Part shown: positions 27,393 to 56,414 of the stretch, piece by piece
Layout of the letters: every line of letters begins with the position of its first letter
Numbering within the stretch: position 1 is the first letter of the stretch
Assembly: GCF_007197885.1 (NCBI RefSeq)
Contig: NZ_VKKG01000004.1
Location: 62,001-126,000 of the forward strand
Reading direction: 5' to 3'
Source: Tessaracoccus rhinocerotis
GTDB lineage: Bacteria; Actinomycetota; Actinomycetes; Propionibacteriales; Propionibacteriaceae
DNA: 64,000 nt
The notes under the pieces: model-generated
What the model was told of the DNA's origin: nothing
The model's input: only the letters and a program-made list of their open reading frames with translations
Database searches by the model: none
Translations under genes and position numbers: made by a program

Positions 27393-27399
27393 TCGGAGC

Positions 27400-28523: not shown

Positions 28524-30488
28524 ATGGATCCCGAGGCGCGGCAGCAGCTCCGTCGGGTCGCGGCGCGCGTGGAGGCGATGGCGGAGCTGGCCGAGCCGGT
28601 CCTCGCCCACCGCGCGGCGGTGGCGGCCGAGGCGGACGCGGCGGCGCAGCGACTGAGGGAGGCCGCCGTCGAGGTTCGATCCGACGGTGAACACGCCTGG
28701 ACCGTCCTGCCCCTGGGGCCCGACGACGAACCGGACCTGGGCGCGCTCCTCCGGCAGCGGCTACTACCGACGCTGGGTTTCCGGGAGTCGGAACTCATCC
28801 AGCAGCTCCACCACCGGGTCGGACCCCTGCTGGCGGAGGTGCGCAACCTCTCCGGGTGGCGCCGGTTCTTCGCCGGGCGCCGCACCAGGGACAAGGCGCA
28901 CGCCGCGGCCCGGGAGCTGACGCAGATCCACGACGCCGTCCGCGACGCCGACCTCGTGGGCAGGCTTCCCGGCCTCGCAGAGGACGCCGGGGCGCCGTCC
29001 GTGCTGGTGGGCGACGCGCTGGACCCGCGCGTGGGACTCGGCGCCCACGTCGAACCCCACCACGGCCAGCAGCGCCTGCTGCCCGTCTCGGAACTCGCGG
29101 GCGCCGAGTCCGCGGTCGCCGTGCTGCTGATCGCCCTCCACACGGAGATGGAGTTCCGCGACGCTGCCCGCAGCGCCTGCGAGGACATCCGGCTCGCCGA
29201 GGCCCGAGAGGTCCTGGCCGCCATGCCCGTCGAGGCCATCCGGGACGCCAGCCGCGAACGGATCCCGATCGGCCCACTCCGGGTCGGGGGAGTCACCACG
29301 GTCCTCGACGTCCACCAGCGGCTGCACGAGTTGGAGGAGTTCCCGGGGATCGGCGAGATGTCGGCCACCCGGATCCGGGCGGCGGCCACGACCCTGTGGA
29401 ACACCACCTACGACACCACCCCCGTCCACGTCGACGCCGTCGCCCGCCCCGCGCACGCCACCGCCCTCCTCGCCCGGCTGGCGGTCTGGGACGGGGTGCG
29501 CACCAGCACGGACCCGGCGGCGGACCTCGCCCGGGCCGAGGCGGCGGACCGGGTGCTGCGGGCGCTCGATCCGGGGGACGAATGGCTCGCCGTCTTCTGC
29601 GTCGGGGAGCGCACCGTCGACGAGTTCGAAGCGGAACTGGCCGCCGTCGCGGAGCGCGCCGCGGCTGCCAGGGTGCCGTCCGTCGCGCAGGTGCCGCAGG
29701 ACCCCTGGATGGACTTCCTCGCCCGCCCCGCGCACTACTACGCCCTCCTCTCGGAGCTCGGGTTCCTCTCCGAGCACGGCGGCAGGTTCGAGGGCGACGT
29801 TCCCTCCGACGTCGTCGACGCCATCCGCGCACTGGACCTCAACACCATGTACCTGGAGGCCTCGCTGCGCGGCTACCAGGACTTCGCCGCCAGGTTCGCG
29901 CTGGTGCAGGAGCGCGTCGTCATCGGCGATGAGATGGGACTCGGCAAGACCGTGGAGGCGCTGGCCGTACTCGCCCACCTGCGGGCACAGGGCCAAACGC
30001 ACTTCCTCGTGATCAGTCCGGCCGCCGTGGTCACCAACTGGGTCCGCGAGGTCCCCCTCCACACCCGGCTGGAGGTGCACCGCCTCCACGGTGAGGGCCG
30101 GCGGGCCGCCCTCGAGGCGTGGCGACGAGACGGTGGGGTGGCCGTGACGAGCTTCGGCACGCTGCGCTGGGCGGTGCACCAGGAACTGCCGGTGGAGCAG
30201 GTGGGGTGCGTCGTCGTCGACGAGGCCCACTACATCAAGAACCCGGCGGCGAAGCGCTCCCGGCGCACCGCCGACATCCTCGACCGGGTGCCCCGGGTGC
30301 TCCTGATGACGGGCACCCCGCTGGCCAACCGGATCGACGAGTTCTGCCCGCGACGACGAGGTCCACGCCGTCGAGGGACGGGGCGTCGCGCACTGGGGAG
30401 CACGAGACGTCGTGGCCCTGCTCACGGAACGCGCCCGCGAGGATGTCCGCGACGTCGCGCGTCGCGCCGGCCCGGGTGGCGTGGGTGA
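28524..30488 (+). pseudogene. N-terminal part of a split SNF2-type helicase
   Basis: The first 608 codons (to 30347) encode the start of a SNF2-like DEAD/DEAH helicase. Residues 1-430 form a poorly characterised N-terminal region with a helix-hairpin-helix-like LEEFPGIGEMSATRIRAAATTLW; helicase lobe 1 follows with Walker A GDEMGLGKTVEAL, motif II VVVDEAHYIKN and motif III LMTGTPLANR. After RIDEFC homology to the right-hand part stops; the frame runs on 46 codons through antisense flavodoxin sequence, rich in Arg and clearly non-native, ending at 30488. Lobe 2 lies at 55.6-56.4 kb. The left fragment keeps nucleotide-binding motifs but lacks motifs IV-VI, so it cannot be a working translocase unless the intervening DNA is excised. 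Confidence 0.9.
30076..30347 (+). repeat. left copy of the 272-bp helicase direct repeat
   Basis: This segment, from TGCACCGCCTCCACGGTGAG to CGACGAGTTCTGC, is repeated at 55339-55610 in the same orientation, offset 25,263 bp. I count about five mismatches in 272 bp. It encodes part of helicase lobe 1 (RLHGEGRRAALEAW to RIDEFC). The two copies define the borders of the island. Confidence 0.93.
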
Positions 30489-30504
30489 TGAGGATGCGTG
30501 CCAT
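30348..30504 (-). pseudogene. truncated flavodoxin-domain gene (5' end)
   Basis: The minus-strand frame from ATG 30504 encodes 52 residues matching the start of a flavodoxin/HemG-like domain: MARILITHATRAGATRDVAD, with the FMN phosphate-loop Thr/Gly region, then GHDVSCSPVRDAPSLDGVDL and VVAG. It ends abruptly where the helicase repeat begins, so the rest of the fold, including the second FMN loop, is missing. The fragment marks the left junction of the island. Confidence 0.72.
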
Positions 30505-30705
30505 GCCGACGAGCGTAGGCACACGGCTTCTGGAGATAACCGGCGGGGCTGGCGAAGCGTCAGCAGGGCGGGCGGTTCCGATCCGTCCACGCGATTTCAG
30601 GCGAAGCCTCCGGGACCGCGGCCCACCGGATTTGCGTTCGACGGAAGCAGGGCGGAAGCCAGCAAATACGGGCCTGTACGTTACGAAGTCGTGACCACCT
30701 GCTGC

Positions 30706-30764
30706 TTGACGTGGTGTAAGGTCCCCCGTACTGTGATGGAGAACGTTCCATAGAGAACGTTGTT
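30706..30764 (+). promoter_or_regulatory. importer-operon promoter with tandem AACGTT operators
   Basis: TTGACG (30706-30711) and TACTGT (30729-30734), 17 bp apart, are followed by TGGAGAACGTTCCA (30737-30750) and GAGAACGTTGTT (30753-30764). The two AACGTT cores are 14 bp apart and cover the transcription start, a repression arrangement. The same core and the same 14-bp spacing recur at 52609-52631. Confidence 0.78.
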
Positions 30765-30818
30765 CATGGCTTCGGAATGGACCTGAGTCATGGAGTGGTT
30801 ACTCACAAGGGAGTAGAG

Positions 30819-32393
30819 ATGACTCGCACATCATTTCGTCGCTGGCTTACAGCAGGAGCCGTTGCGACCATGGCTGCAGCACTCGTGGCATGTTCGGGGG
30901 GCACGGAAGCTGGCAACGCGCCTTCGCCCGACGCCACCGGAGATCCGGGTGCTGGGGCAACCGCCGACACGGGTGGAAGCAAGGGCGTGCTTCGGCTCGC
31001 CATGAACCAGGACATCCAGGGCTGGGACATCGGCAATCAGCCCGGCTACATGGGCTGGCCCGCTGAAGCAGTGTGGGACACACTCTTCAAGTGTGATGCC
31101 TTCAACGAGCTGGAGCCGGACATCGCCGAGTCCTGGGAGATCAACGAGGACCGCTCTGGTGTCACGGCTCACATCCGGGAAGGCATGGAGTTCTCTGACG
31201 GGACGCCGGTGGACTCGGCAGCCGTGGAGGCCAGCTTCACCTACATCAAGGAGACGAGCAGCCGCGCTGCCGACTACGCCTCACTGGTGATCGAGACCCC
31301 CGACGCCTACACCGTCTCTCTCACCTGGGACGAGCCGCAGGTCACCCTCGAGGACAAGGTCTGCGCGCCCAAGATCACCACGCCCGCGCTGATTGAGTCG
31401 GGCAACACCAATGACGAGCCCATCGGCTCGGGACCTTACGTCCTGGACGCCGCCAAGACCACGCGTGGGTCCGTGTACGCGTTCGCCAAGAATGAGAACC
31501 ACTGGAATGCGGACCACTACCCGTACGAGGAACTGCTCGTCAGCGTTATCGAGAGTGAGACCGCTACCGTGTCGGCGCTCAAGACCGGCCAGCTCGACGG
31601 TGCCCGCGTCACCGCGCCTAGCGTGGCTGAGGTCGAAGCTTCCGGACTCAACACGAAGCAGTACCGAGCCCAGGTGCCTCGCCTCATCCTGAGCGATCGC
31701 ACGGGTGAGAAGATCCCGGCACTGGGCGATGTCCGCGTCCGACAGGCCATCAACATGGTCTTCGACAAGGAGACTGTCGCTCAGGCGCTGTACCTCGGTC
31801 ACGCCGAGCCCACTGCCCAGGTCTTCCGTCCCGGGTCGCGGGCCCACATCGAAGGCCTCGAGGATCCCTATCCGTTCGATGTCGAGAAGGCCAGGGAGCT
31901 CATGGCAGAGGCGGGCTACGCCGACGGATTTTCCATTGAACTCCCGACCATGACGGGTCAGAACCACGAGACGGTGCTGCCGTACATCACGCAGCAGCTC
32001 GCTGAGATCAACATCACCGTCGAGCAGGTCCCTCTCTCCGGCGCCAATGCCATTGGTGACCTTCTGAGTGGCACCTACCCGGTCGTATTCTGGGAGCTGG
32101 GTAACATCGGTGACTCCGCCATGCAGATTTACATCGAGGCCACTCCCGATGGCTGGTGGAACCTTCAGCACCAGCCCAACGAGTACGTCGATTCGCGGTT
32201 CGAGCAGATGGCGTCGGCTGACGAGGCCACCAGCGAGAAGCTTCAGCAGGAGATTAACCAGTACATCGTTGACGAGGCATGGTTCGCTCCACTGGTGTAC
32301 GCCGGAGGATTCTGGGCGTTTACCGATGACGTCCAGATCCCGACGGACTCCTTTGTCGAAGGGCTCCACCCGGCGCTCCGCGATTTCAAGTAG
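30819..32393 (+). CDS. Opp/Dpp-type ABC importer substrate-binding lipoprotein (family 5)
   Basis: A 524-residue family-5 solute-binding lipoprotein. The signal ends in lipobox ALVAC, followed by a Gly/Thr/Asp linker. The mature protein has GVLRLAMNQDIQGWDIGNQP, AESWEINEDRSGVTAHIREG, GSGPYVLDAAKTTRG and DVRVRQAINMVFDKETVAQAL, the usual SBP_bac_5 blocks. ATG 30819 is preferred (AAGGGAG upstream) over 30777, which lies upstream in frame. It heads an operon with glycosidases; family-5 proteins in such contexts bind oligosaccharides rather than peptides. The likely ligand is a plant-derived glycan fragment or glycoside containing rhamnose, inferred from the GH78 gene downstream. Confidence 0.88.
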   Translation: MTRTSFRRWLTAGAVATMAAALVACSGGTEAGNAPSPDATGDPGAGATADTGGSKGVLRLAMNQDIQGWDIGNQPGYMGWPAEAVWDTLFKCDAFNELEPDIAESWEINEDRSGVTAHIREGMEFSDGTPVDSAAVEASFTYIKETSSRAADYASLVIETPDAYTVSLTWDEPQVTLEDKVCAPKITTPALIESGNTNDEPIGSGPYVLDAAKTTRGSVYAFAKNENHWNADHYPYEELLVSVIESETATVSALKTGQLDGARVTAPSVAEVEASGLNTKQYRAQVPRLILSDRTGEKIPALGDVRVRQAINMVFDKETVAQALYLGHAEPTAQVFRPGSRAHIEGLEDPYPFDVEKARELMAEAGYADGFSIELPTMTGQNHETVLPYITQQLAEINITVEQVPLSGANAIGDLLSGTYPVVFWELGNIGDSAMQIYIEATPDGWWNLQHQPNEYVDSRFEQMASADEATSEKLQQEINQYIVDEAWFAPLVYAGGFWAFTDDVQIPTDSFVEGLHPALRDFK

Positions 32394-32409
32394 TCACCGG
32401 AGCTGAGAA

Positions 32410-33351
32410 ATGACCCGTCACCTGCTATTCAACCTTGGACGTTCAGTGCTCGTGCTGTTCGTTGTCACCTTCATCGTCTTCGCCCTGATGTACGGCGACG
32501 GCTACGGAATCGCCTACTCGGTGCTTGGCCTCACGGCGACACCCGAGGCGGTTGAGGCCAAGGTGGTTGCCCTGGGGCTGGACCGCCCCTTGCTCACGCA
32601 GTTTGGTGACTGGCTCGGCGGGGCATTCACGGGAGACCTGGGAAGGTCCTTCTACACGGGACAATCCGTGTCAGAAGCGCTCTCCACCCGGGTCCCCGTG
32701 ACTCTCTCAGTCGTCATTCCGACTCTCGTCCTCACGGCGGTCATCAGCGTCTTGCTGGGAGTGACCGCAGCCGTCAGGGGCGGTGTGGTGGACCGTGTCG
32801 TGCAGGTGATCTCGGTCGGCGGTACGGCAGTGCCATCCTTCATCGTCGCCATCGCCCTGGTGTTCACTTTCGCCATCAGATGGCGGTTCTTCCCGGCGAC
32901 GGGATACACCAAGCTCTCTGACAGCCCCACCGCGTGGCTCGCCTCCGTGGCGTTGCCCATGGTCGCCCTCCTGATCGGTGCCGTGGCGAGCGCCGCGCAG
33001 CAGTTCCGAACAGCAGTGCTCGACACGATCGGGCGGGACTACGTCCGGACGTTGAGGGCGCGTGGGGTCCGTGAATCCAACATCATCTTCGGCCACGTCC
33101 TGCGGAACGCCGCGGCACCCGGGCTCACTGTCATCAGCCTGACGGTGTTCGGACTGCTGGGCGGTGCTGTCTTCATCGAGCAGGTGTTCGTCCTGCCGGG
33201 AATGGGGCAGCTGGCCAACATGTCTGCACAGATCTCCGATGTCCCCATGGTCATGGGGACTGTCCTGGTGATGGTGCTCATCGTGCTGGTCGTCAACTTC
33301 ACCACTGACCTGGCCATCAATCTTCTCAACCCGAAGGCGAGGACCCGATGA
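32410..33351 (+). CDS. Opp/Dpp-type ABC permease, DppB-like
   Basis: A 313-residue permease with about six membrane helices. It begins with a helix at residues 10-30 (SVLVLFVVTFIVFALMYGDG), has the GLDRPLLTQFGDWLGGAFTGD and LGRSFYTGQSVSEALSTRVP region typical of DppB, and the EAA-like loop YVRTLRARGVRESNIIFGHV. Its stop overlaps the ATG of the following permease-ATPase gene. It forms the channel with the permease half of that protein. Confidence 0.9.
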   Translation: MTRHLLFNLGRSVLVLFVVTFIVFALMYGDGYGIAYSVLGLTATPEAVEAKVVALGLDRPLLTQFGDWLGGAFTGDLGRSFYTGQSVSEALSTRVPVTLSVVIPTLVLTAVISVLLGVTAAVRGGVVDRVVQVISVGGTAVPSFIVAIALVFTFAIRWRFFPATGYTKLSDSPTAWLASVALPMVALLIGAVASAAQQFRTAVLDTIGRDYVRTLRARGVRESNIIFGHVLRNAAAPGLTVISLTVFGLLGGAVFIEQVFVLPGMGQLANMSAQISDVPMVMGTVLVMVLIVLVVNFTTDLAINLLNPKARTR

Positions 33352-35132
33352 CCGACGTGGCCACCACCATCCCACTGACCGGTGATGCCCGTCGGAGCAA
33401 CAAGTCGGTCCTTCGCCGACTGGTCGCCAACCCGCAGGCCGTGATTTGTCTGGTCTGGCTGCTCGGTGTTCTTCTGGTCGGTGCCCTGGCTCCTTGGTTG
33501 GCCACCAGCGATCCCAACACCACCTTCCTGGCGGAGACCAATGCCGGACCCGGCACCCCGGGGCACCCGCTCGGTGTGGACAGTGCGGGCCGCGATGTCC
33601 TCAATCGCCTCATCTGGGGCGCCCGCGAGTCGGCGATGGCCGTCGCCGTCGTCACCGTGGTCTCAGTGGCTTTGGGGGTCTCCACCGGCCTCATCGCAGG
33701 CTTCTACCGGGGTCGCTTCGAGAGCATCGCAGGCTTCATCACCGACGTCGTCCTCTCGATGCCCGGCATCGTGCTCCTCATCGCGCTCTACGCCCTGACC
33801 GGACCGGATGTCTTGGCGGCCATGGCCGTCTACGGCGTCCTGTTGGCGCCCTCGTACTACCGACTCGTACGGTCCATCGTGCTGGGGGTGCGAAACGAGT
33901 TGTACGTCGACGCCGCGCGCGTGGTCGGCCTCTCGGACTGGAGGATCGTCGGGCGGCACGTCTTGTGGGCAGTCCGTGCGCCCGTCATCATCCAGAGCTC
34001 CTTCGTCATGGCCTCCGGTATCGGGATTGAGGCCGGGGTGTCCTTCTTGGGGCTAGGCGATCCCACGAGTTCTTCATGGGGCATCATGCTCCAACAGTCG
34101 TTCAACTCGATCTACAACAACCCGATCCTCGTGCTGTGGCCCGCTCTGGTCGTGAGCATCACCATCCTCGCCCTCATCCTCTTCGGTAACGCGCTGAGTG
34201 ATGTGCTGCAGGCATCGGCCCGCAGCAAGGTGCTCCCGCCACGAGCCAGGCGACGGGCGCTGGCGGCTGCCCGGGAAGCCCTCCCCGGACCGACGACGGA
34301 ACCGACACCGCTCGGCAGCTCAGACGACGTCATCCTCTCCATCCGGGACCTGCGGATCGGCTATCCAGCTCCTGACAACTCGGTCAACCAAGTGGTCCAC
34401 GGAGTCGACCTGGATGTCCGGCGTGGCGAGATTCATGGGCTCGTAGGCGAGTCCGGCTCGGGCAAGTCGCAGATTGCCTTCTCAACCCTCGGAATCCTCC
34501 CGAAGGAAGCGCTCGTCGTCAGCGGACACGTGATGCTCGACGGCGAGGACCTCCTGGCCGACGACACCAAGCTTGCGGAGGCCCGCGGAACTCGGATCGG
34601 ATATGTGCCACAGGAGCCGATGACGAACCTGGATCCCTCCTTCACCATTGGTAGGCAACTGGTCAAGGGACTGCGGGCAGCGCGGCCGATGTCCAAGGCC
34701 GACGCCCGGAAGCGGCTCGAGGAACTGCTCGTCAGCGTGGGCATCACGGACCCCGACAGGGTGATGGGCCTGTACCCCCACGAAATATCGGGTGGGATGG
34801 CCCAGCGCGTCCTGATCTGCGGTGCCATCGCCTCGCAGCCGGACATCATCGTCGCCGACGAGCCGACGACGGCGCTGGACGTGACGGTGCAAGCGGAGGT
34901 GCTGGAGATCCTGCGCAATCTCAGTCTCGAGCGGGGGATGGCCATGATCTTGGTGACGCACAACCTGGGGGTCGTTGCGGACCTCTGCGACACCGTCAGT
35001 GTCATGAAGGACGGCCTGATCGTGGAGAGCGCCGATGTCGAGGAGCTCTTCTCCAACCCCCGCGAGGAGTACACCCAACAGCTGCTGGCCTCATCGCGCA
35101 GCGTCGAACTGATGGAGGACAACGATGAGTGA
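33348..35132 (+). CDS. fused Opp-type permease (DppC) and ATPase (DppD)
   Basis: A 594-residue protein that joins two subunits. Residues 1-290 are a DppC-like permease: NPQAVICLVWLLGVLLVGAL, GTPGHPLGVDSAGRDVLNRL and the EAA-like loop DAARVVGLSDWRIVGRHVLW. After an Arg/Ala/Pro linker (about 290-325) comes an ABC ATPase with Walker A GESGSGKSQ, Q-loop YVPQEPMTNLDPSF, signature ISGGMAQRVLI and Walker B IIVADEPTTALDVT. Both parts look intact. Similar permease/ATP-binding fusions occur in actinobacterial peptide/nickel/sugar importers. The second ATPase follows with an 8-base overlap. Confidence 0.9.
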   Translation: MTDVATTIPLTGDARRSNKSVLRRLVANPQAVICLVWLLGVLLVGALAPWLATSDPNTTFLAETNAGPGTPGHPLGVDSAGRDVLNRLIWGARESAMAVAVVTVVSVALGVSTGLIAGFYRGRFESIAGFITDVVLSMPGIVLLIALYALTGPDVLAAMAVYGVLLAPSYYRLVRSIVLGVRNELYVDAARVVGLSDWRIVGRHVLWAVRAPVIIQSSFVMASGIGIEAGVSFLGLGDPTSSSWGIMLQQSFNSIYNNPILVLWPALVVSITILALILFGNALSDVLQASARSKVLPPRARRRALAAAREALPGPTTEPTPLGSSDDVILSIRDLRIGYPAPDNSVNQVVHGVDLDVRRGEIHGLVGESGSGKSQIAFSTLGILPKEALVVSGHVMLDGEDLLADDTKLAEARGTRIGYVPQEPMTNLDPSFTIGRQLVKGLRAARPMSKADARKRLEELLVSVGITDPDRVMGLYPHEISGGMAQRVLICGAIASQPDIIVADEPTTALDVTVQAEVLEILRNLSLERGMAMILVTHNLGVVADLCDTVSVMKDGLIVESADVEELFSNPREEYTQQLLASSRSVELMEDNDE

Positions 35133-35958
35133 GCCGCTTCTCCAGGTCACTGATCTGGTGGTCCGTTTTACTGGCCGCCGAGGTGCATACAAGGAGGTCA
35201 TCAGGGGCGTCTCGTTCGATCTCGCAGCGGGTGAGACGCTCAGCATCGTTGGGGAGTCGGGTTCGGGCAAGACCACCATCGGGCGGGCGATCCTCGGATT
35301 GGCTCCCGTCACCGCGGGCACCATCTCGTTTCGTGGCAGTCCCATCAATACGCTCTCCAGGGCTGACCGTCGACGTCAGGCCAAGGACATCCAGGTGGTG
35401 TTCCAAGACCCGTACTCGTCACTCAACCCAGCCATGACGGTGGAGGCCATTCTCGTCGAACCGCTGCGTGCAGCCGGGATCGAGGGCGGACGGAACAGGG
35501 TGCAGGAGCTACTCGATGCAGTAGGCCTGCCCGCCAACGCCGGCACCCGGTACCCGCGCGAGTTCTCTGGCGGACAGCGGCAGCGCATCGCCATCGCCCG
35601 CGCCCTCGCGCTGGAGCCGGCCGTGATCGTGTGCGACGAACCCACCAGTGCACTCGACGTCACGACCCAGGCCACGGTGCTCAATCTCTTCAAGGACCTC
35701 CAGGAAGCGACCGGTGTCGCCTACCTCTTCATCAGCCATGACCTCGGCGTGGTCAACAGGGTGAGCGATCGGATCGCCGTCCTCCACGAGGGGGCGCTGG
35801 TCGAACTCGGGCCGGCACGCCAGATTGCCACCGCACCGCGACACCCCTACACACGACGCCTCCAGATGGCAGCCCCCGTGGCAGACCCAACGATCCAGCG
35901 TCGACGGCGGGAGGAGCGCCTCCTCATGCTCGAACAGAGCGACAGCCAATCGACCTAG
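35125..35958 (+). CDS. Opp/Dpp-type ABC ATPase, DppF-like
   Basis: A 277-residue ATPase with Walker A GESGSGKTTIGRAIL, Q-loop VVFQDPYSSLNPAMTVE, signature FSGGQRQRIAIARAL and Walker B VIVCDEPTSALDVTTQ, followed by FISHDLGVVNRVSDRI (H-loop). The family's C-terminal tail APRHPYTRRLQ is present. It overlaps the preceding fusion gene and is the last transport gene; the GH78 gene starts 35 bases later. It pairs with the fused ATPase domain to drive oligosaccharide import. Confidence 0.92.
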   Translation: MSEPLLQVTDLVVRFTGRRGAYKEVIRGVSFDLAAGETLSIVGESGSGKTTIGRAILGLAPVTAGTISFRGSPINTLSRADRRRQAKDIQVVFQDPYSSLNPAMTVEAILVEPLRAAGIEGGRNRVQELLDAVGLPANAGTRYPREFSGGQRQRIAIARALALEPAVIVCDEPTSALDVTTQATVLNLFKDLQEATGVAYLFISHDLGVVNRVSDRIAVLHEGALVELGPARQIATAPRHPYTRRLQMAAPVADPTIQRRRREERLLMLEQSDSQST

Positions 35959-35993
35959 CGCGTCAGCCCTATCACACAACGGAGAGTCTCCCC

Positions 35994-38825: not shown

Positions 38826-38889
38826 GCTACCACCCGTCGCCGGATCTTCCGGGCGCGGCCATTCGCGGAACCTCATTCCAGGAGTACAG

Positions 38890-45304: not shown

Positions 45305-45382
45305 CTAGAGTTCAGAAGTCCGGCGCCCGATCGTCCGGCACGCGGGAAACTCCGCGTCCAGGCCATCGATGAGGAGCGCCCC

Positions 45383-47791: not shown

Positions 47792-47815
47792 GCTACTACT
47801 GAGGGACTACCTGTT

Positions 47816-49552
47816 TCAGTCGATCGTGGTGAGCCGGATGGCCATCCAGGGGCGCGCGGGCAGGTCCACCCGGACCTTGCCGGTGTGCTCACCCGGCACT
47901 GCAGTGATGCTCATCGCCCAGGTGTCGATGACGTCGATCCGGCTTGAGCGGCCCTCCGGGATGACGAGATCGCGGAACAGTGGGCGATGTTGGCCGAAGT
48001 AGTGCACTTCGTACTGGTCGGCGACGCCCCCGACGAGTGCGTCGAAGGGGCCCGGCAGCGGCTCGATGCGGCCGGTCGGGGACGCTTCGCAGATCTCGGA
48101 CAGGAATCTGATCCGGGCGGGGGCTTCGCCGCGGAGGGAACCCCCCTTGGCCCAGAAGATGATCTCCTCGGGGTTCCAGAAGGTCTCGCCATGAGTGGCA
48201 TAGCCACCCGCGAGCGTGGTCTCCCAGAACTGCTGCGTCACGGCTTCGGCCGTGAGGTTGCCCCAACCCTGATCGAGGTCGCCTTCGTAGCCGAACTCGT
48301 CGACGACGACCGGCTTGCCCCAGCGGTGGCGCCACTGGCCGACCTTCTTTCCCAGGAGTTCCCCGTACTGGAGTGAGCAGTGCGTGGCCCAGGGTGACGA
48401 GTAGTCCCACAGATAGGTCCAGTTGTGGATGGACAGGAGGTGCCCGACGTGGTCCTCCTCGGCGATGATCGCCGCGATGCGGTCCCAGTCGGCATCCGTC
48501 TTCGAGTGGAGAAGGTCGTACTCGTTGGCCAAGGACCACCAGACGTTGGGGAAGGCGCTGAGCCGGCGCGTGAGGTATCTCAGGTAGCGCTCGTCGATGG
48601 CCGCGCTCCGCGTGGCGAAGCCCCAGCGATCATAGGGGTGGAAGAGGATGAGGTCGGCCTGGATGCCCAGTCCCTCGAGCTGCTGGATCCGACGTTCCAG
48701 GTCCTGCCAGTAGGACGGATCGAATCGCGTGAAATCAAAGGTGCCCTCCTCCCTCCGGCTCCATGCGAAGTTCAGTGGCTCGTTGCTGTTGTAGATGAAG
48801 TCCTTGGGGAAGATGCCCATGCGGACCTTGTTGAACGGTGCCGCGGCGAGCGAGCGGAGGGTCTCGTCGGCCAGCTCATCGCCTTGGTGGGTCCAGGCGT
48901 AAGCAGTGGTGCCGACGGGACGGAACGGCTGTCCGTTGGCATGGGCGAAGTGGAACTTGTCGCTGACCCGGACCGGCCCGGGACGTTCCGACGCGGCCAC
49001 CGAGAACGAGCCGACGACACCGTCGAGCGAGCGCGCGTTGGACCGGGTGGAGAACGTCCAGTCCCCGGTCGTGGGGGCGAGGAACCGGATGACGTATCGG
49101 CCCTCGCCGTCGTAGAAGCCGCCGACCGTGATGGTGGTGTGGCCCTGCGTGAAGTCAGAGTGCAGTTCGACGTCCGTGAACGGATTGCCGTGCGACGGGC
49201 CCTCCAGAACGACCTCGGCCATGCGGTGAAGTTCTGCACCCGAGGGAAGGTGGAGGATGGCGCTACCAGCGGCCACATCGTCGCCCTCGTAGTCAGGGCG
49301 ACATCCGGGGGCGGCCTCATCAGGTTCGGTTGGAGTGGTGTCCTCGATCTTGGCCAGGCGGTCCATGATGGTGGGAATCCGTGAGTCGTGCTCGCCGAGG
49401 GCGAGTCCCAGCACCCACTCGACGGGAAAGGCGCTCCATTGCTGCAGCGTGGGTGAGTTCTCCAGCTCCGGGGCCGCGCTGGCGAGCACTTGCCATGCCT
49501 CGGGATTCTCCAGAACGGCGGATGTGAGGGAACGCTTGTGGAACATGACCAT
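47816..49552 (-). CDS. DUF5060/DUF4038 (apiosidase-like)/DUF5605 glycosidase
   Basis: A 578-residue predicted intracellular glycoside hydrolase. An acidic leader (residues 1-110) includes a DUF-like helical region; then comes a DUF5060 beta domain (VVLEGPSHGNPFTDVELHSDF, GGFYDGEGRYVIRFLAPTTGDW), then an apiosidase-like TIM barrel: VSDKFHFAHANGQPFRPVGT, FNKVRMGIFPKDFIYN, NVWWSLANEYD (a likely catalytic Glu in NEYD) and PVVVDEFGYEGDLDQ (likely nucleophile Glu), ending with a DUF5605-type beta domain. The ATG at 49552 is chosen because CTGGAGATC precedes it; upstream codons run through the operator. The barrel family includes GH140 apiosidases, and an apiose-type pathway lies 20 kb away, so apiosidase activity is a reasonable hypothesis, not a proof. 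Confidence 0.75.
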   Translation of the reverse strand: MVMFHKRSLTSAVLENPEAWQVLASAAPELENSPTLQQWSAFPVEWVLGLALGEHDSRIPTIMDRLAKIEDTTPTEPDEAAPGCRPDYEGDDVAAGSAILHLPSGAELHRMAEVVLEGPSHGNPFTDVELHSDFTQGHTTITVGGFYDGEGRYVIRFLAPTTGDWTFSTRSNARSLDGVVGSFSVAASERPGPVRVSDKFHFAHANGQPFRPVGTTAYAWTHQGDELADETLRSLAAAPFNKVRMGIFPKDFIYNSNEPLNFAWSRREEGTFDFTRFDPSYWQDLERRIQQLEGLGIQADLILFHPYDRWGFATRSAAIDERYLRYLTRRLSAFPNVWWSLANEYDLLHSKTDADWDRIAAIIAEEDHVGHLLSIHNWTYLWDYSSPWATHCSLQYGELLGKKVGQWRHRWGKPVVVDEFGYEGDLDQGWGNLTAEAVTQQFWETTLAGGYATHGETFWNPEEIIFWAKGGSLRGEAPARIRFLSEICEASPTGRIEPLPGPFDALVGGVADQYEVHYFGQHRPLFRDLVIPEGRSSRIDVIDTWAMSITAVPGEHTGKVRVDLPARPWMAIRLTTID

Positions 49553-49608
49553 CGTGATCTCCAGTGATGTGGGGTTCGCGCACAGGTGCGCAACGAGCTT
49601 GACCCGAC

Positions 49609-49629
49609 TATAGTGTAAAACGTTCTCCA
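49609..49629. promoter_or_regulatory. operator in the divergent region between glycosidase and LacI genes
   Basis: AAAACGTTCTCC (49617-49628) carries the AACGTT core of the island operators. It adjoins a palindromic ACTATAGT, a possible -10 in either direction. The site lies between the divergent DUF5060 and LacI genes and could control both. Confidence 0.6.
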
Positions 49630-49711
49630 TCGGCCAGTGCCCATGGGGGCCGTCGACATGATCCAACATGGCAGAAGGAGGTCTTCGCATGAAGACACGG
49701 AAGGAGCAGGC

Positions 49712-50755
49712 GTGAGCTCGAGTCCAGAAGCACTGGGTCGGCGGCGGCGCGTGACCATTGTTGATGTGGCCAAGCACGCCGGTGTGTCCACGGCGTCCGC
49801 TTCGAAAGTACTGCGCAACGCGTACGGCGCGAGCGAGGCCATGCGGGAGAAGGTGCGTGCTTCCATGGAGGAACTCGGGTACCGGCCCCATGGCCCGGCC
49901 CGGGGCATGCGTGGCCGGACGTACACGATCGGGGTCCTGGTCTCGGACATCGACAACCCATTCTTCAGTTTGCTGGCCGATGGGGTGTCCAGTGTCATCC
50001 GGGCCCACTCCTATGAGCTACTGCTGTCTCCCGCGGGGTTCACCCGCTCCGGACAGAGGAACGTCAAGGATGCGTTGATCGACCACCAGATGGACGGGCT
50101 TGTCCTTGTGTCCCCTCTCATGAGTTCCGAGGAACTGGAGGAGACCGCGCGTGACATCCCGCTCTGCGTCGTCGGCCACCACAGTGACAGCGACCTGTTC
50201 GACAGTGTGGCCGGTGACGATGAGCTGGGTGCTTCTTTGGTTGTGGACCACCTCGTTGAGCTCGGTCACGAACGTATCGCCTTCGTCATGAACCATGACG
50301 GGCGCATGGACCCGGCCCGTCCGGAGTACCACCGCCTCGCCGGGTACCGGGCCGCCATGGAGCGACACGGTCTGACGGACCAGGCCGCGGTGTTGGATGC
50401 ATCCTGGAGCTTTGAGGGTGGGGTCACGGCGGCCCGGCTCGTCGATGAGCTCCCCGTTCAGCCGACGGCCGTCCATGCGGGGGCGGACATAGTCGCCCTG
50501 GCCATGATGAACGAACTCTGGCGGCAGGAGCGCTTCATCCCGGAGGCCTACTCCCTGGCTGGGTATGACAACTCCAGGACGTCGGCCTTGGGGCCGATTC
50601 GTCTCACGACGGTCGATCAGTCCGGTCGTCAGATGGGTGAGACGGTTGGACGGCTGCTCGTCGAGCGAATCGAGGGGCGGACCGATTCCCGGCACGAGTT
50701 GATGGAACCGACGCTGATGGCGCGGTCCACCACCGTGGCGCCGAGGGGCGAGTGA
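49712..50755 (+). CDS. LacI-family regulator of the island genes
   Basis: A 347-residue repressor with HTH VTIVDVAKHAGVSTASASKVL and the DNA-minor-groove hinge GYRPHGPARGMRGRTYTIGVL, then the effector domain (IDNPFFSLLADGVSSVIRAH, MDGLVLVSPL, GYDNSRTSALGPIRLTTV). GTG 49712 is preferred because AAGGAGCAGG precedes it and places the HTH near residue 14; the frame is open further up. Since AACGTT-type operators lie before the importer, GH3, DUF5060 and secreted hydrolase genes and before itself, it probably controls the island. Effector unknown. Confidence 0.9.
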   Translation: MSSSPEALGRRRRVTIVDVAKHAGVSTASASKVLRNAYGASEAMREKVRASMEELGYRPHGPARGMRGRTYTIGVLVSDIDNPFFSLLADGVSSVIRAHSYELLLSPAGFTRSGQRNVKDALIDHQMDGLVLVSPLMSSEELEETARDIPLCVVGHHSDSDLFDSVAGDDELGASLVVDHLVELGHERIAFVMNHDGRMDPARPEYHRLAGYRAAMERHGLTDQAAVLDASWSFEGGVTAARLVDELPVQPTAVHAGADIVALAMMNELWRQERFIPEAYSLAGYDNSRTSALGPIRLTTVDQSGRQMGETVGRLLVERIEGRTDSRHELMEPTLMARSTTVAPRGE

Positions 50756-50853
50756 CTGCTGGTCGCTGGTAGCGTTTCGCATTGGATAGCCGGTCTACGC
50801 CGACCCCGGGAGATCCTCACCTCCCACGAATGTTCGGCGCAGGAGATTTGCGT

Positions 50854-52098
50854 ATGGCTTCCACTCATGTCCCCTCGGAGCGCACCTCGAGCGTTCCGCC
50901 GGGGCGGCTCATTGTGATGTTGGGCCTGTTGTCCATCCTTGGCCCCCTCACGATTGACCTCTATCTTCCGGCCTTTCCCCAGATCGAGAACGAACTGGCC
51001 ACGACGCCGTTTGCCGTCCAGCTCACGCTGAGCGGTGCCACGCTGGGCTTCGCACTCGGGCAACTGGTGGTGGGGCCGTGGAGTGACTCCATCGGTCGAC
51101 GGCTACCGCTGCTCATCGGAACGGGAGTGCATGTGGCGGCCAGTGTGGCAATCGCGGCATCGCCCGATATCGAGTGGCTGATCGTGTTGCGCGTCCTCCA
51201 GGGGGCCGGCTCGTCTGGCGCTGGTGTGGTGGCCATGGCCATGATCCGGGACGTCGCCGAGGGCAGCTCCCTCATCAAGGGCCTGGCTCGGGTTGCGCTG
51301 TTCAGCGGCACGGCCCCCATCGTCGCGCCCTTCCTTGGCGCCCAACTCATGCACCTGTTCAGCTGGCGTGGGATCTTTGTTGTTGTCGCCGCCTACGGGG
51401 GTGTGGTGCTCGTGCTGGCTGCCGCCTTCATTCCTGAGACGCTCTCGCCGGAGAGGCGCCTCGGGGGGCGTGGCCGAGGCAGGGTGCTGCGCAGTTACCG
51501 CTTGTTGCTGAGGGACCGGTCCTTCGTCGGTGTGGCTCTGGTCGGGGGGATGATGGTGTCGTCGGTTTTCGCCTACCTCTCCACGTCGTCGTTCATGTTC
51601 CAGCAGGCCTTCGGTTTGGCGCCACAGACGTATGGACTGATCTCGGGGATCAACGGATTGATGTTTGTGGTGGGGACGCAGGTGTCCGCGGCGCTGGCTG
51701 TGCGGCAGGGCCCTCATCGCGTCCTGGCGATGATCCTCCTGGGCATGGTGCTGATCCCCGCCGCGCTCATCCTGCTCTCGTGGGTCTGGCCAGGTCTGGC
51801 TGGCGTCGTCATCGCGATGGCTCTCTTCCTGCTGCTTGCAGGGGGATGCGGGCCCTGTCTCTCGGCCCTCGGGCTGGCGGAGCACGGTGAGCGCGCAGGG
51901 ACGGCAGCCGCTCTTCTGGGGGCCGCCAACTTCGGTCTGGCGGGAGTGGCGTCGCCCGTGGTTGGGCTGCTGGGTGTCACATCGTTTGCACCGTTGGGGG
52001 CCGTGATGGCGGCGGCGATGCTTCTGGCGAACCTGGCGTTCTGGTTCATGATCGCACCGCGCCGTAGGCGTCCGGGCGGCCAGGCGCTTGACCGATAG
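50854..52098 (+). CDS. Bcr/CflA-like MFS transporter
   Basis: A 414-residue major facilitator protein with twelve predicted membrane helices. The pattern LGLLSILGPLTIDLYLPAFP, LTLSGATLGFALGQLVVGPWSDSIGRR (the conserved MFS loop 2-3 motif) and RVLQGAGSSGAGVVAMAMIRD belongs to the drug-H+ antiporter 12-TMS (Bcr/CflA) group. AGGAGATTTG leads to ATG 50854; the frame opens further up without a site. It may export a toxic aglycone freed by the glycosidases, or a drug. It is the only MFS protein in the window and follows the LacI gene. Confidence 0.86.
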   Translation: MASTHVPSERTSSVPPGRLIVMLGLLSILGPLTIDLYLPAFPQIENELATTPFAVQLTLSGATLGFALGQLVVGPWSDSIGRRLPLLIGTGVHVAASVAIAASPDIEWLIVLRVLQGAGSSGAGVVAMAMIRDVAEGSSLIKGLARVALFSGTAPIVAPFLGAQLMHLFSWRGIFVVVAAYGGVVLVLAAAFIPETLSPERRLGGRGRGRVLRSYRLLLRDRSFVGVALVGGMMVSSVFAYLSTSSFMFQQAFGLAPQTYGLISGINGLMFVVGTQVSAALAVRQGPHRVLAMILLGMVLIPAALILLSWVWPGLAGVVIAMALFLLLAGGCGPCLSALGLAEHGERAGTAAALLGAANFGLAGVASPVVGLLGVTSFAPLGAVMAAAMLLANLAFWFMIAPRRRRPGGQALDR

Positions 52099-52103
52099 AG
52101 AAC

Positions 52104-52576
52104 GTTATCGAGGCGAGCAAGGCGGCCTCGCCCGGCGACCCACTCTTCGTCACCTTCCTGGGGCCGCTGGCCAATGTCGTCTTTGGGCAGGCGTCGGGCT
52201 CTGGCAGGTCCCGGCCACCATCTACACGATGGTCTCGGTCGGCTATGCCGAACTGGAGGAGAAGCTCCGCGGCACCAGCCGGCTCGCCGACTACCTCATC
52301 GACCAACTCGTGGAGTGGAACGCCACCGTGCCGGTGGGTGAGCCTTTGAGCACCGCTCCCTGGGTGACTCGCCAGCCATTGGACTGGTCTGGATCCGACG
52401 GGCGGCTCTTCCGCACGGTGCCGGCGCCTCGTTTCGGCCGGGAGGGTGGCTACCTTCCCGGGGCCGGGCATCCTATTCGTGTGTTCGACCAGGTGGACGT
52501 GCGCTACCTGCTGGAAGACATGTTTGCCAAGATCCGCCTCTTTGGTCGGGAGGAAGTCTCGCGCCTGGGTCATTGA
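52104..52576 (+). pseudogene. nucleoside hydrolase remnant, N-terminus lost and frameshifted
   Basis: The first frame (from about 52107) reads IEASKAASPGDPLFVTFLGP followed by LANVV, the DxLxVTFLGPLTN block of inosine-uridine nucleoside hydrolases. A frameshift near 52170-52190, where bases look deleted, switches to LWQVPATIYTMVSVGYAELE and ends DVRYLLEDMFAKIRLFG, typical of the family's C-terminus. The N-terminal Asp-rich ribose-binding part (DTDPGxDD) is missing. So this is a decayed gene next to the MFS gene. Confidence 0.65.
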
Positions 52577-52631
52577 CACTGGAGATCCCCACGCCTTAGG
52601 GTCGTGAGTACGTTCTATGGAGAACGTTCTC
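52573..52631 (+). promoter_or_regulatory. promoter and tandem operators of the secreted hydrolase gene
   Basis: TTGACA (52573-52578) and TAGGGT (52597-52602), 18 bp apart, precede TACGTTCTA (52609-52617) and the perfect GAGAACGTTCTC (52620-52631). The cores are 14 bp apart, as at the importer promoter. Start codon at 52657. Confidence 0.75.
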
Positions 52632-52656
52632 TCAAGTCCCCGAAGAAGTGAGGACC

Positions 52657-54684
52657 ATGACTTTGTCGTCCCAGCTCAGGAATCGCGTTGTCGGAGCAGC
52701 CGCTGCTGCCGTGCTGTTTGCCGGTAGCCTCGTCCAACCCAGCGCCGCAGCGCCGCCCACGTGTAGCAGCGAGGGCGGCGCCTTGCAGGTCACTGCCGAC
52801 TGTGTCGACCCGACCTATGCCTCCCCGGTCGTCGACAGCACAACCGACGAGACGTCACCCTTGCCGCACCGTCGGATTCGGGGGCACTTCGAAGGCACTG
52901 ACATCCAATTCACCGTCTATTTCCACGCCGAGGAGAGCAAGTCGGCGTGGGAGGGCCGGTTCTTCCAGTTCACCTACCCGACGACCTTCGCCCCAGGCGA
53001 GGACCTCTCCCAAGCTACGGATCGTGCCATCAGCTTTGCGCTGGGCGGTGGCGGCTACGCGGTCCAGGCCGGCAATTCCAGTGTCTCGCTTGGCTACGCG
53101 CACGGGGCCGCGGCAGCGAAGTTCGCCAAGACCCTTGCCGCCGACTACTACGCCCAGGAGGGGCCGATCCATGGCTATCTCTACGGGCCCAGCGGCGGCT
53201 CCTTCCAGACCCTCGGTGCGGCCGAGAACACCACCGGAGTGTGGGACGGCTTCGTCTCGATGGTGCAAGCCGTGCCGCAGCCGACGTCGTACCAGTTCCA
53301 GGCCCGCGCCGCCGGTGACCTGATCCTCACTGACAAGGCCGCCCAGATCCAAGCAGCGATGCTGCCCGGTGGCAGCGGGGACCCATTCGCCGGTCTGGAT
53401 GAGGCTGAGAGCGCCATGCTGGAGGAGATGCATCGGCTGGGTGTGCCGTGGCAGGCGTGGGAGTACCCCGACTACCTGCTTGGCCAGACCGAGCAGTACG
53501 CAAATGGCCTGACGTCCAGCGATCCGTTGCGGTTCGATCCGACCTACGCCGATGATTTCTGGAATGCCCCGGGTTACCTCGGTGTCGAGGACTCGGCGCT
53601 GGGGGAGCGCGTCCGCAGTGTTCTCGCGGAGATGGGCGACACCGAGGAGAACCGGTGGGACATCGCCAACCGGTTCTACTACCGCTACCAGGTGCCCCCC
53701 GAAGAGGAGGGCTGGGTGGCCTTCGACCAGTTCCGCGGGTCCGATGGGACGCCGATCCATCCCCAGCGGGTGGCCAAGGACAGCGGCTTCCACGGCTTCG
53801 TCTCCGGTAACACGGCATTTGACGGATCCATCAACGGCAAGTTCATCGCGGTGTCCAACCTGTACGACACAGATGCCCTGCCCCTGCACACGGACTGGTA
53901 CCGCAGGCAGGTTGAAGCCAGCCTTGGGCATGCGGCTGCTGACCACTACCGCGTGTACTTCAATGACCACGCTGACCACCAGGACGCTCCGGTGTCAGGG
54001 GAGAGGGCGAAACACCTCGTCGACTGGTACGGCATGGTGGAGCAAGCGCTGCGGGATATCGCCAACTGGGCGGAAGACGGCGTCGAACCGCCGGCGTCCA
54101 CACAGTATGACGTCGTGAACGGGCAGATCGTCGTGCCGGACGGAGCCACTGACCGACTCGGTATCCAGCCCACCGTCTCCCTGACGGGTGGTGGCCTCGA
54201 GCGTGTCCAGGCCAAGGTTGGTGAGCCCGTCGCCCTGACGGCGACCGTGCAGGTGCCACCGGGTGCCGGTGAGATCATTCGGGTCGAGTGGGATCTCGAC
54301 GGCGACGGTGACTATGAGGAAGCTCCGCCCGTTCCTGCAGGCGCCTGGCTCGCGGCGCGAACCTCGTTTGAGGCCACCGCGTCGTTCGAGGAGGCGGGCA
54401 CGCATTTCGTCGGGGTGCGCGTCACCGCGGAACGCAACGGGGACGTCGAAGCGCAGCACGCATGGGTGCTGAACCTGGACCGGGTGCAGATCGTCGTCAG
54501 CGGCGACACAGGGGAGCCGGGCGACACCGATCCGCCGGTTGAGCCCACACCAGGGAACGATCTTCCGATGGAGCCCACACCCGATGCGGATCCGTCCGCT
54601 CAACCCATCAGGCCGCCGGTTCCCGGGATTCCGCCCGGCCTGCCGAGCACCGGTGCGGACGCGTCCCCCGGCGAGGTCGGCTGA
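52657..54684 (+). CDS. secreted alpha/beta hydrolase with PKD-like domain and cut-off LPXTG
   Basis: A 675-residue secreted protein. Residues 1-33 are a Sec signal (RNRVVGAAAAAVLFAGSLVQ, Ala-rich cleavage). The catalytic part is an alpha/beta hydrolase: oxyanion/nucleophile elbow YGPSGGSFQ with Ser near residue 179, an acid residue in SNLYDTDALPLHTDW and the catalytic His in YFNDHADHQD. A PKD-like domain follows (IIRVEWDLDGDGDYEE). The end is a proline/threonine-rich linker and LPSTGADASPGEVG, a sortase motif not followed by a membrane helix or basic tail. ATG 52657 has GAAGTGAGG; a GTG at 52648 is also open. It may be an esterase acting on acylated polysaccharide; substrate unknown. Regulated like the glycosidases. 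Confidence 0.8.
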   Translation: MTLSSQLRNRVVGAAAAAVLFAGSLVQPSAAAPPTCSSEGGALQVTADCVDPTYASPVVDSTTDETSPLPHRRIRGHFEGTDIQFTVYFHAEESKSAWEGRFFQFTYPTTFAPGEDLSQATDRAISFALGGGGYAVQAGNSSVSLGYAHGAAAAKFAKTLAADYYAQEGPIHGYLYGPSGGSFQTLGAAENTTGVWDGFVSMVQAVPQPTSYQFQARAAGDLILTDKAAQIQAAMLPGGSGDPFAGLDEAESAMLEEMHRLGVPWQAWEYPDYLLGQTEQYANGLTSSDPLRFDPTYADDFWNAPGYLGVEDSALGERVRSVLAEMGDTEENRWDIANRFYYRYQVPPEEEGWVAFDQFRGSDGTPIHPQRVAKDSGFHGFVSGNTAFDGSINGKFIAVSNLYDTDALPLHTDWYRRQVEASLGHAAADHYRVYFNDHADHQDAPVSGERAKHLVDWYGMVEQALRDIANWAEDGVEPPASTQYDVVNGQIVVPDGATDRLGIQPTVSLTGGGLERVQAKVGEPVALTATVQVPPGAGEIIRVEWDLDGDGDYEEAPPVPAGAWLAARTSFEATASFEEAGTHFVGVRVTAERNGDVEAQHAWVLNLDRVQIVVSGDTGEPGDTDPPVEPTPGNDLPMEPTPDADPSAQPIRPPVPGIPPGLPSTGADASPGEVG

Positions 54685-54698
54685 TCCTGATCTGTGCT

Positions 54699-54734
54699 GT
54701 GGGGAGGTGGGCGCTCGGGCTCCCACCTCCCCAC
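54699..54734 (+). terminator. GC hairpin terminator after the secreted hydrolase gene
   Basis: GTGGGGAGGTGGG (54699-54711) and CCCACCTCCCCAC (54722-54734) form a perfect 13-bp stem with a 10-base loop, 15 bases past the stop. It closes the island's last transcription unit. Confidence 0.8.
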
Positions 54735-54839
54735 ACCCCGTCGCCGCAGTTTCGAGGGATGCGCACCGTCGTTAGTTGCGGGCATCGCAGCCAGCAGCAG
54801 CCGTGCTCAGCGCATGCCCTGCCGGGTGTCGACGGGCAG

Positions 54840-54892
54840 TTGACAGCAGGACCTTGACCCGTAGACTGGCACCGCTCATTCAGGACTGAATG
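54840..54892 (+). promoter_or_regulatory. second transketolase promoter with palindromic operator
   Basis: TTGACA (54840-54845), 16-bp spacer, TAGACT (54862-54867), then CATTCAGGACTGAATG (54877-54892) followed by AATATGCA. Element order and spacing copy those at 23096-23148, including 10 bp from -10 to operator. It drives the broken transketolase copy, so the promoter appears intact while its gene is not. Confidence 0.78.
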
Positions 54893-54911
54893 AATATGCA
54901 CGAGGAGGCCA

Positions 54912-55338
54912 TTGCTCCAGGCAACCCACACGCGCGCCGGTGAGTGGCGCGACCTGCGCAGGCCAATCGCCAATGCCTCACCAGCCGAGCGCGACGAGCT
55001 CATCGGCGCTGAGGCCAAGGCCATCCGTCGTCACGTCGTCACGACTATCGACGCCGCGCGTGCGGGCCACATCGGCGGGGACCTCAGCATCACCGACGTG
55101 TTGGCCACGCTGTACTTCGGCGTGCTGCGTCTCGACCCTGCGGACCCGGACGGGGCCGAGGGGTCTGCTGCACGAGCGCTGACGAGTTCATCCTGTCCAA
55201 GGGACACTGCGCCGCCGCGCTGTACGCGACGCTCGCCAGTGTCGGCTACTTCTCCACCGACGAGCTGTCGACGTTCATGGCGCGGGGTTCAGCCCTCAAC
55301 GGTCACCCCAACCGCAACATGCTGCCCGGCGTCGAGAC
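54912..55338 (+). pseudogene. broken second copy of transketolase N-half gene
   Basis: The reading starts at TTG 54912 (MLQATHTRAGEWRDLRRPIA) after GAGGAGG and matches the intact copy at 23167, though protein identity is well short of complete (nucleotide divergence throughout). After LYFGVLRLDPADPDGAEG a one-base shift near 55180 puts the true continuation (DEFILSKGHCAAALYATLAS, FMARGSALNGHPNRN) in another frame. Homology then stops at GVET, where the helicase repeat begins. It is a 5' fragment, probably from a related apiose operon. Confidence 0.85.
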
Positions 55339-55610
55339 TGCACCGCCTCCACGGTGAGGACCGGCGGGCCGCCCTCGAGGCGTGGCGACGAGACGGTGGG
55401 GTGGCGGTGACGAGCTTCGGCACGCTGCGCTGGGCGGTGCACCAGGAGTTGCCGGTGGAGCAGGTGGGGTGCGTCGTCGTCGACGAGGCCCACTACATCA
55501 AGAACCCGGCGGCGAAGCGCTCCCGGCGCACCGCCGACATCCTCGACCGGGTGCCGCGGGTGCTCCTGATGACGGGCACCCCGCTGGCCAACCGGATCGA
55601 CGAGTTCTGC
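55339..55610 (+). repeat. right copy of the 272-bp helicase direct repeat
   Basis: Direct repeat of 30076-30347, offset 25,263 bp, with about five scattered differences (for example GGACCGG against GGGCCGG, and GGAGTTGCC against GGAACTGCC). It joins the transketolase fragment on its left and continues as native helicase sequence on its right. Confidence 0.93.
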
Positions 55611-56414
55611 GCACTCGTCCAGCAGGCTCGCCCGGACCTGCTGGAGGACCTCGTGGAGTCGCCGACGGCGCACGACTTCCGGCAGGCCGTCGCGCCCGTC
55701 TACCTGCGGCGCAACCAGGAGGACGTGCTCACCGAGTTGCCCGAATTGGTGGAGGTCGACGAGTGGGTCCCGATGTCCGCCGTGGACCAGGGCGTCTACC
55801 GAGAGGCGGTGGAGGCGGGCAACTTCATGGCGATGCGGCAGGCGGCGTGCACGCAGGGCGCGTCGTCGGGGAAGCTGCGGAGGCTGTGCGAGATCGTCGC
55901 CGAGGCGGAGGCCAACGGACGCCGCGTGATCGTGTACTCGCACTTCCGAGAAGTGCTCGCGCAGGTGGCTGCCCTGCTGCCGGGCCCGGTGTTCGGGCCA
56001 CTGACCGGCTCGGTGCCGCCGACCGAACGCCAGAGGATCATCGACGACTTCACCGCAGCCCCCGGCGGGGCCGCACTGGTGGCGCAGATCGTCGCCGCCG
56101 GCGTCGGCCTGAACATCCAGGCCGCGTCCGTCGTGGTGATCTGCGAGCCACAGCTCACCCCGACCACCGAGTGGCAGGCCATCGCCCGCGCGCACAGGAT
56201 GGGTCAGCTGCGCAGCGTCCAGGTGCACCGGCTGCTCTCCGACGAGGGCGTCGACGAGCGGCTGACCGAGATCCTCGCCCGGAAGCGGGCCGTGTTCGAC
56301 GACTTCGCCCGCGTCAGCGAGCTCGCTCACAGTGCACCCGAGGCGTTCGACATCACGGAGACCGACCTGGCGAGGGAGGTGGTGGCGGCTGAGCGGGAGC
56401 GGCTGCTGGGGTAA
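55339..56414 (+). pseudogene. C-terminal part of the split SNF2-type helicase
   Basis: From the repeat onward the frame gives RRAALEAWRRDGGVAVTSFG and VVVDEAHYIKN, then the native continuation ALVQQARPDLLEDLVESPTA. It carries lobe 2 with the motif V/VI region: IVAAGVGLNIQAASVVVICEPQ and AIARAHRMGQLRSVQVHRLL. The 5' end is missing: Walker A and the first 500 or so residues remain at 28.5-30.1 kb. The fragment is in frame with the transketolase remnant upstream, so an unbroken 500-codon frame runs 54912-56414 from a transketolase promoter; this chimera is probably accidental. Confidence 0.88.

Follow-up and report, generated by a model that had tools for sequence, protein, structure and literature searches.

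Organisation of the split helicase gene

The stretch of DNA analysed here (the window, 64,000 nucleotides) comprises bases 62001-126000 of a 417-kb contig of Tessaracoccus rhinocerotis, whose draft assembly amounts to 3.55 Mb in 49 contigs. It contains a gene for an 875-residue SNF2-type helicase with a long N-terminal region, which is split into two parts by a large insert. The features are listed in Table 1. We consider it likely that a random foreign fragment of about 25 kb, derived from a plant-glycan locus, was inserted by accident and broke the helicase gene. This reading starts from what is seen directly, namely the split gene in the assembly, the truncated and unrelated genes at the ends of the insert, its foreign composition, and the unbroken gene that is found elsewhere.

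Table 1. Features of the window, grouped by subject, with their positions and the basis of each assignment.
Feature	Position	Strand	Basis
SNF2-family helicase codons 1-608 (N-terminal region and most of RecA lobe 1), 3'-truncated	28524..30347	+	ORFs, Pfam, alignment to P0001
Direct repeat copy 1, 272 bp	30076..30347	+	blastn of window against itself
Inserted foreign fragment, 24,991 bp, GC 65.3%, mean GC3 0.79	30348..55338		junctions, composition
Direct repeat copy 2, 272 bp, 5 mismatches to copy 1	55339..55610	+	blastn of window against itself
SNF2-family helicase codons 519-875 (end of lobe 1 and lobe 2), 5'-truncated	55341..56414	+	ORFs, Pfam, alignment to P0001
First 52 codons of flavodoxin-like gene, cut at left junction	30348..30504	-	translation; DNA identity to own contig C23 and G028
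Solute-binding protein and peptide-type (Opp) ABC transporter genes	30777..35958	+	Pfam
Glycosidases: rhamnosidase (GH78), GH3, GH43, GH2, GH3	35994..47791	+	Pfam
DUF5060/Apiosidase/DUF5605 protein and 254-aa ORF without Pfam match	47816..50782	-	Pfam
MFS transporter, 162-aa ORF without Pfam match, 678-aa protein with weak PKD match	50782..54684	+	Pfam
Start of transketolase N-subunit gene with upstream palindrome, frameshifted, cut at right junction	54877..55338	+	DNA identity to resident gene
Resident sugar operon: DUF2291, ribose-type ABC transporter, transketolase N and C, FGGY kinase, xylose-isomerase-like protein, sugar-binding SorC-type regulator	18537..28392	+	Pfam
LigD primase-polymerase domain protein (end-joining)	89..1144	+	Pfam PF21686, 304.5 bits
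Second operator-like motif	30740-30763, 45289-45310, 49617, 50508, 52093-52108, 52607-52636, 54548		

When the window was compared with itself using blastn, a direct repeat of 272 bp was the strongest among the repeats listed. The two copies are on the same strand and align without gaps, with 267 of 272 positions identical (E 4e-132) and an offset of 25,263 bp. The mismatches, at 30097, 30143, 30185, 30186 and 30293, amount to a divergence of 1.8% and separate exact runs of 21, 45, 41, 106 and 54 bp. Four of the five are synonymous (P 0.020-0.031 under neutral mutation, if the repeat began as an exact duplication). A first-pass annotation, made from the sequence alone, had described a helicase split between direct repeats of this length and offset with about five mismatches, and both the blastn comparison and the open reading frames (ORFs) bear this out. 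Its 25.3-kb island is indeed an insertion, but that figure counts one copy of the repeat, and the insert proper is smaller (Table 1).

The repeat starts within helicase codon 518; in its second copy, the reading frame resumes at codon 519 (55341). The 5' half of the gene remains open for 46 codons into the insert, with a stop at 30488, and the 3' half is part of a 500-aa ORF whose start (54912) sits in the transketolase fragment. The new joins are therefore between helicase codon 608 and the flavodoxin-like gene on the left, and between the transketolase gene and helicase codon 518 on the right. When the flanks are joined, an unbroken frame of 875 codons with a single terminal stop results whichever repeat copy is used; the first-pass annotation had reported the same frame for the join through copy 1. 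Neither half contains an internal stop or a frameshift. Pfam identifies SNF2-rel_dom in both halves and Helicase_C in the second half only. In a search of the organism's own genome with window positions 30300-30700, the 3' end of the repeat was found at the two helicase places only.

It is most likely that the helicase is now inactive, because its first half stops right after the TGTP motif within lobe 1 and is followed by 46 foreign residues, while the second half has no ATP-binding motif.

Codon 608, the last of the repeat, encodes cysteine in both copies (30345-30347 and 55608-55610). The corresponding residue is arginine in 181 of 213 relatives that carry the motif (231 proteins were examined and 18 without the motif were set aside). 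The shared cysteine suggests a common origin for the two copies. It was also considered as proof of a single parent allele, and was rejected as such, because it does not separate the possible routes of insertion and chance could account for the identity of the three final bases.

Intact relatives of the helicase

Relatives of the helicase at E 1e-60 or better occur in 3 of the 39 genomes of the genus that were searched, including its own, and the other two are 45% and 57% identical. The helicase is therefore an accessory gene. The closest protein found, P0001 (874 aa), is unbroken and has 97% identity to the N half and 98% to the C half, followed by P0002 and P0003 at 75-87%. An intact allele of nearly the same gene therefore exists. 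In a wider genome collection, the helicase sequence is contiguous over the split point in all of the best 80 of at least 559 confirmed loci, several of which match just the later portion of the N half. On this evidence, an old division of the gene throughout the family was rejected as an explanation of the split.

The differences from P0001 amount to 17 of 517, 2-3 of 91 and 3 of 267 residues in the three parts of the helicase. Decay of a pseudogene was considered as a clock and abandoned, these differences being too few for dating; P0002 and P0003 likewise show higher conservation in the C-terminal part. In PADLOC, the top profile for P0001 is the DpdE model PDLC02852, which it matches over its full length with 764 bits. 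It scores 82.3 bits against the NCBIfam DpdE model, for which the cut-off is 500, and assignment as a DpdE-type helicase was rejected for this reason despite the PADLOC match, no search aimed at dpd partner genes having been made. The N half was matched by 3 plasmid records at E 1e-40, none of them with 80% coverage.

These comparisons bear on whether the two halves might still be used together as a two-piece helicase. Both are free of stops, and the C-terminal half lies in an ORF that begins in the transketolase fragment, behind its upstream palindrome. Against this, the relatives are contiguous at the split point in every one of the 80 loci, and copy 1 breaks off inside lobe 1 and carries the foreign tail described above. 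We regard continued use of this kind as the most improbable of the explanations considered here.

Ends and content of the insert

Both ends of the insert are parts of genes. The fragment at the left end has 80% DNA identity to positions 2791-2933 of contig C23 of the same assembly and 79% to the genus-mate G028. From the look of its sequence, it is presumably part of a flavodoxin gene. In both places the counterpart adjoins a gene that, again from its sequence, is presumably a phosphofructokinase. The fragment at the right end has 73% DNA identity to the resident transketolase gene at 23133-23576. No further copies of the insert ends were found in the assembly, where they occur at this single site. 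Because both ends are broken, unrelated genes, they do not look like the boundaries of an element, and the insert would thus appear to be a random fragment rather than a discrete element.

The 14 larger ORFs of the insert are all open. From their domains the insert is best read as a fragment of a locus for the utilisation of plant glycans, of a pectin or apiose type. The PKD match of the 678-aa protein scores 22.1 bits, under the cut-off of 23.5. A Pfam scan of these 14 ORFs at E 1e-3 (smaller ORFs were not scanned) found no integrase, resolvase, transposase, recombinase or replication gene, in agreement with the first-pass annotation, which had seen no integrase in the island. No tRNA gene was found within the window. 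Pfam also recognised no regulator in the insert; the 254-aa ORF without a match is at 50018-50782.

Composition of the insert and search for a donor

Twelve stretches of the same genome were taken as a reference for composition, of which one was masked and dropped, leaving 11 that were readable. The insert is compositionally foreign in its GC content, GC3 and tetranucleotides, when compared with its flanks and with 10 of the 11 stretches. Its tetranucleotide distance is 17.2, against 7.3-13.8 in those ten. GC3 is at most 0.835 in 14 of 14 insert ORFs, and the left flank has a mean of 0.90; a GC3 of 0.84 or less also occurs in 41 of 143 sampled ORFs from the rest of the genome, and GC3 alone would not prove foreignness.

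The eleventh stretch, G000:C1:100001-120000 (L112), has a GC content of 61.8% and a tetranucleotide distance of 33.4, exceeding that of the insert. It is probably another foreign region.

Protein and DNA searches with several insert genes did not find a close donor. Within the family, and including the organism's own genome in each case, relatives of the PKD-like protein occur in 3 of 197 genomes, of the solute-binding protein in 2 of 198 (best identity 35% at E 1e-80), of the rhamnosidase in 70 of 197 (at most 57% identity outside the own genome), of the transketolase fragment in 8 of 198 (the best elsewhere being 76% over 303 bases), and of the flavodoxin-like fragment in 3 of 198. The search with the insert GH2, which scored the 8000 candidates sharing most words, gave at least 5928 matches, and the 120 best listed do not exceed 58% identity. 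The insert therefore does not track the helicase, for which a nearly identical relative is available. An origin from a plasmid found no support, since all 8 plasmid records matching the PKD-like protein are under 60% identity.

The difference in composition between insert and flank would also be expected if the assembly were a chimera, in which an intact helicase locus had been wrongly joined through the 272 bp to another molecule. That the assembly is a draft of 49 contigs also speaks for this. However, the new junctions coincide with the repeat's edges and do not fall within it, so that a chimera would need a second molecule in which a piece of helicase was already fused to both ends of the insert. 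In addition, the two copies differ at five sites, and the genome has a completeness of 100 and a contamination of 0.16. We consider such an error improbable.

The resident operon and the variable locus

Upstream of the helicase is a resident sugar operon (Table 1), putatively for apiose catabolism. The locus was compared with that of G028, whose match to the core gene orf513 is the best among the genus-mates; orf513 is present in 36 of the 39 genus genomes, including the own genome. On contig C7 of G028 (L161), the counterparts of window positions 4357-12795 and 59273-64000 (72-81% DNA identity) are neighbours, and none of the approximately 46 kb between them (window about 12800-59270) is present. 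Because these flanks directly adjoin, the DNA that separates them here is variable; it comprises the resident operon along with the helicase and the insert.

Two further genus members, G036 and G037, have a transketolase operon of the same type as the resident one, with genes for transketolase N and C, a kinase, an isomerase and a SorC protein. In G037 it belongs to a different sugar cassette and is within 2 kb of orf513, and in G036 the operon and orf513 are on separate contigs. In both genomes, counterparts of GH3, GH43 and GH78 (32-47% protein identity) are found about 3 kb upstream of the operon. Opp genes (60-62%) occur in the G037 stretch and are absent from 20 kb of G036. Since glycosidases lie upstream of the transketolase operon in these genomes, the transketolase stub at the right end of the insert probably marks the point where the donor's own operon continued. 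The locus looks like a site of sugar-cassette turnover, and this may partly explain how two related operons came to meet here.

The same observations are relevant to an alternative in which cassettes have been stacked. A second version of the locus would have been joined in tandem to the first, with an internal deletion running from the transketolase to helicase codon 518, and the repeat would be the overlap of the two truncated helicase copies. This would account for the order and orientation of the transketolase and helicase fragments, which are as in the resident locus, and it agrees with the position of the glycosidases in G036 and G037 and with the proximity of the G037 operon to the same core gene. 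The bias towards synonymous mismatches would also fit alleles that diverged while functional. However, the transketolase fragment has 73% identity to its counterpart and the helicase repeat 98%, and because of this the two fragments do not have a single shared history. The flavodoxin-like end belongs elsewhere, both in the own genome and in G028, next to the presumed phosphofructokinase gene. Furthermore, in G036 the block and the core gene are on different contigs, and neither of the stretches fetched from G036 and G037 has a helicase beside the operon. Stacking is thus unlikely, though it deserves more consideration than a chimera.

Origin of the insertion

On the basis of these observations, we return to the accidental insertion of a foreign fragment, and infer that it was additive and duplicated 272 bp of its target. 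Two routes could have led to this result. In the first, which needs the fewest pieces, the foreign fragment would have been end-joined into a break with a 272-bp stagger. The genome encodes Ku, on contig C1 (171 bits over the cut-off), as well as the LigD polymerase domain listed in Table 1. In the second, a circularised molecule carrying a 272-bp piece of the helicase would have integrated by one crossover; the first-pass annotation had pointed out that this event leaves such a pattern, and the structure matches. These two routes are given roughly equal weight, and the stacking of loci less.

Several points weigh against an accidental insertion. Four synonymous changes out of five would be improbable after an exact duplication. 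This excess fits two alleles that diverged while functional, and it leans towards the circle and crossover route. At its right end the insert has the start of a transketolase gene and then the helicase, arranged and oriented as in the resident locus, and the resident transketolase operon is just a few kb away. This would not be expected of a random landing. Finally, one of the 11 reference stretches deviates more in composition than the insert does.

The repeats raise the question of whether the event can be undone. Recombination by RecA between two arms of 98% identity, with an exact run of 106 bp, is possible, and the length of the repeat is in principle enough for RecA. It could delete the insert and re-form the helicase. 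Such an event would be rare, and it would probably be a one-way loss because the deleted circle has no recognisable means of replication. The first-pass annotation had gone further, and proposed that the helicase is reversibly on or off. According to this idea, the island pops out and in through the repeats and toggles the helicase together with glycan use. The long direct repeats with their exact run speak for it, as do the restoration of the frame through either copy and the absence of stops and frameshifts from the halves. However, because none of the 14 insert ORFs is an integrase, transposase or replication gene, an excised circle would probably be lost rather than retained for re-insertion. 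The insert ends in broken genes, its transketolase fragment carries a frameshift, and the repeats have diverged. A second copy of the ends is absent from the assembly, although an assembly would hide a minority circle. Moreover, end-joining explains the same anatomy without a circle. The proposal of a reversible switch is therefore not upheld, and we rate it as very improbable indeed.

In a related possibility, the insert would be a natural selectable module, with RecA exchanging glycan users that lack the helicase for non-users that have it. If this were true, the module would represent a trade-off at the level of the population between sugar use and the role of the SNF2 helicase, which is possibly phage defence in view of the PADLOC resemblance. 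This we find highly improbable, at much the same level as the switch and by a shade less so.

Because the repeats have diverged and the transketolase stub is frameshifted, the arrangement seems to have stood for some time; both differences could equally have come with the DNA.

Comparison with known systems

The arrangement resembles single-crossover (Campbell-type) insertion-duplication, in which the 5' part of the gene with one repeat is followed by the insert and then by the second repeat with the 3' part, in direct orientation. The first gene copy bearing the repeat is truncated at its 3' end and the second at its 5' end, as this process requires. A study of E. coli describes such insertion-duplication after conjugation, with a PCR product for the duplication in 56 of 60 clones and duplications of 109-950 bp in 14 sequenced clones (PMC3240628). 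The E. coli case involved a plasmid circle with cloned homology, whereas no replicon is recognised here, and the helicase piece would first need to be joined to foreign DNA ending in two other genes.

Homology-facilitated illegitimate recombination has been proposed for stacked gene arrays in Vibrio (PMC5361080), and similarly brings in foreign DNA with at least one non-homologous junction near a related sequence. It is expected, as the E. coli report states, to leave a deletion in the target (PMC3240628). Here, by contrast, the target has been duplicated, and neither end of the insert is homologous to the helicase, although additive variants of the process are conceivable.

Capture of DNA by Ku/LigD end-joining agrees with the presence of Ku and the LigD polymerase in the genome, and explains why the ends of the insert lie inside genes. 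A target duplication of 272 bp would imply widely spaced nicks followed by fill-in, for which a limited literature search yielded no bacterial precedent to cite.

The insert shares with integrative islands its approximately 25 kb of accessory metabolic genes, its variable locus and its flanking direct repeats. Unlike islands with a site-specific recombinase, it has no such gene that could be found and no tRNA gene in the window, and its repeats are inside a coding gene. The usual attachment sites are shorter than 272 bp.

No description of this locus appeared among the papers listed in the literature searches. The insertion is an instructive event of an ordinary kind. It provides a natural case in which a 25-kb sugar-use locus was gained without recognisable mobile-element machinery, at the cost of one accessory gene, and it illustrates that such insertions leave gene-internal repeats resembling a designed switch. 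In addition, it records a Tessaracoccus locus at which species differ in their sugar cassettes.

Operator-like sequences

A palindrome of 16 bases, with six-base arms and a four-base spacer, precedes both transketolase genes of the window (23133-23148 and 54877-54892). Both matches are exact, and they are the only two in the window even when two mismatches are permitted, although two matches are also reached in 8 of 100 shuffles at that laxity. The palindrome is also found before the transketolase N gene of G036 (L142:10610-10625), and there is no exact copy in the G037 stretch. It is a candidate operator for the SorC-type regulator.

When up to three mismatches are allowed, a second operator-like motif is matched 11 times in the window (expected 1.4; maximum of 5 in 100 shuffles). 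The matches partly overlap and represent about seven places, all within the insert, and they precede, among others, the genes for the binding protein, the second GH3 and the PKD-like protein. Because its pattern was derived from repeats within the insert, it serves as a lead, not a test. It suggests that the insert may carry its own regulon.

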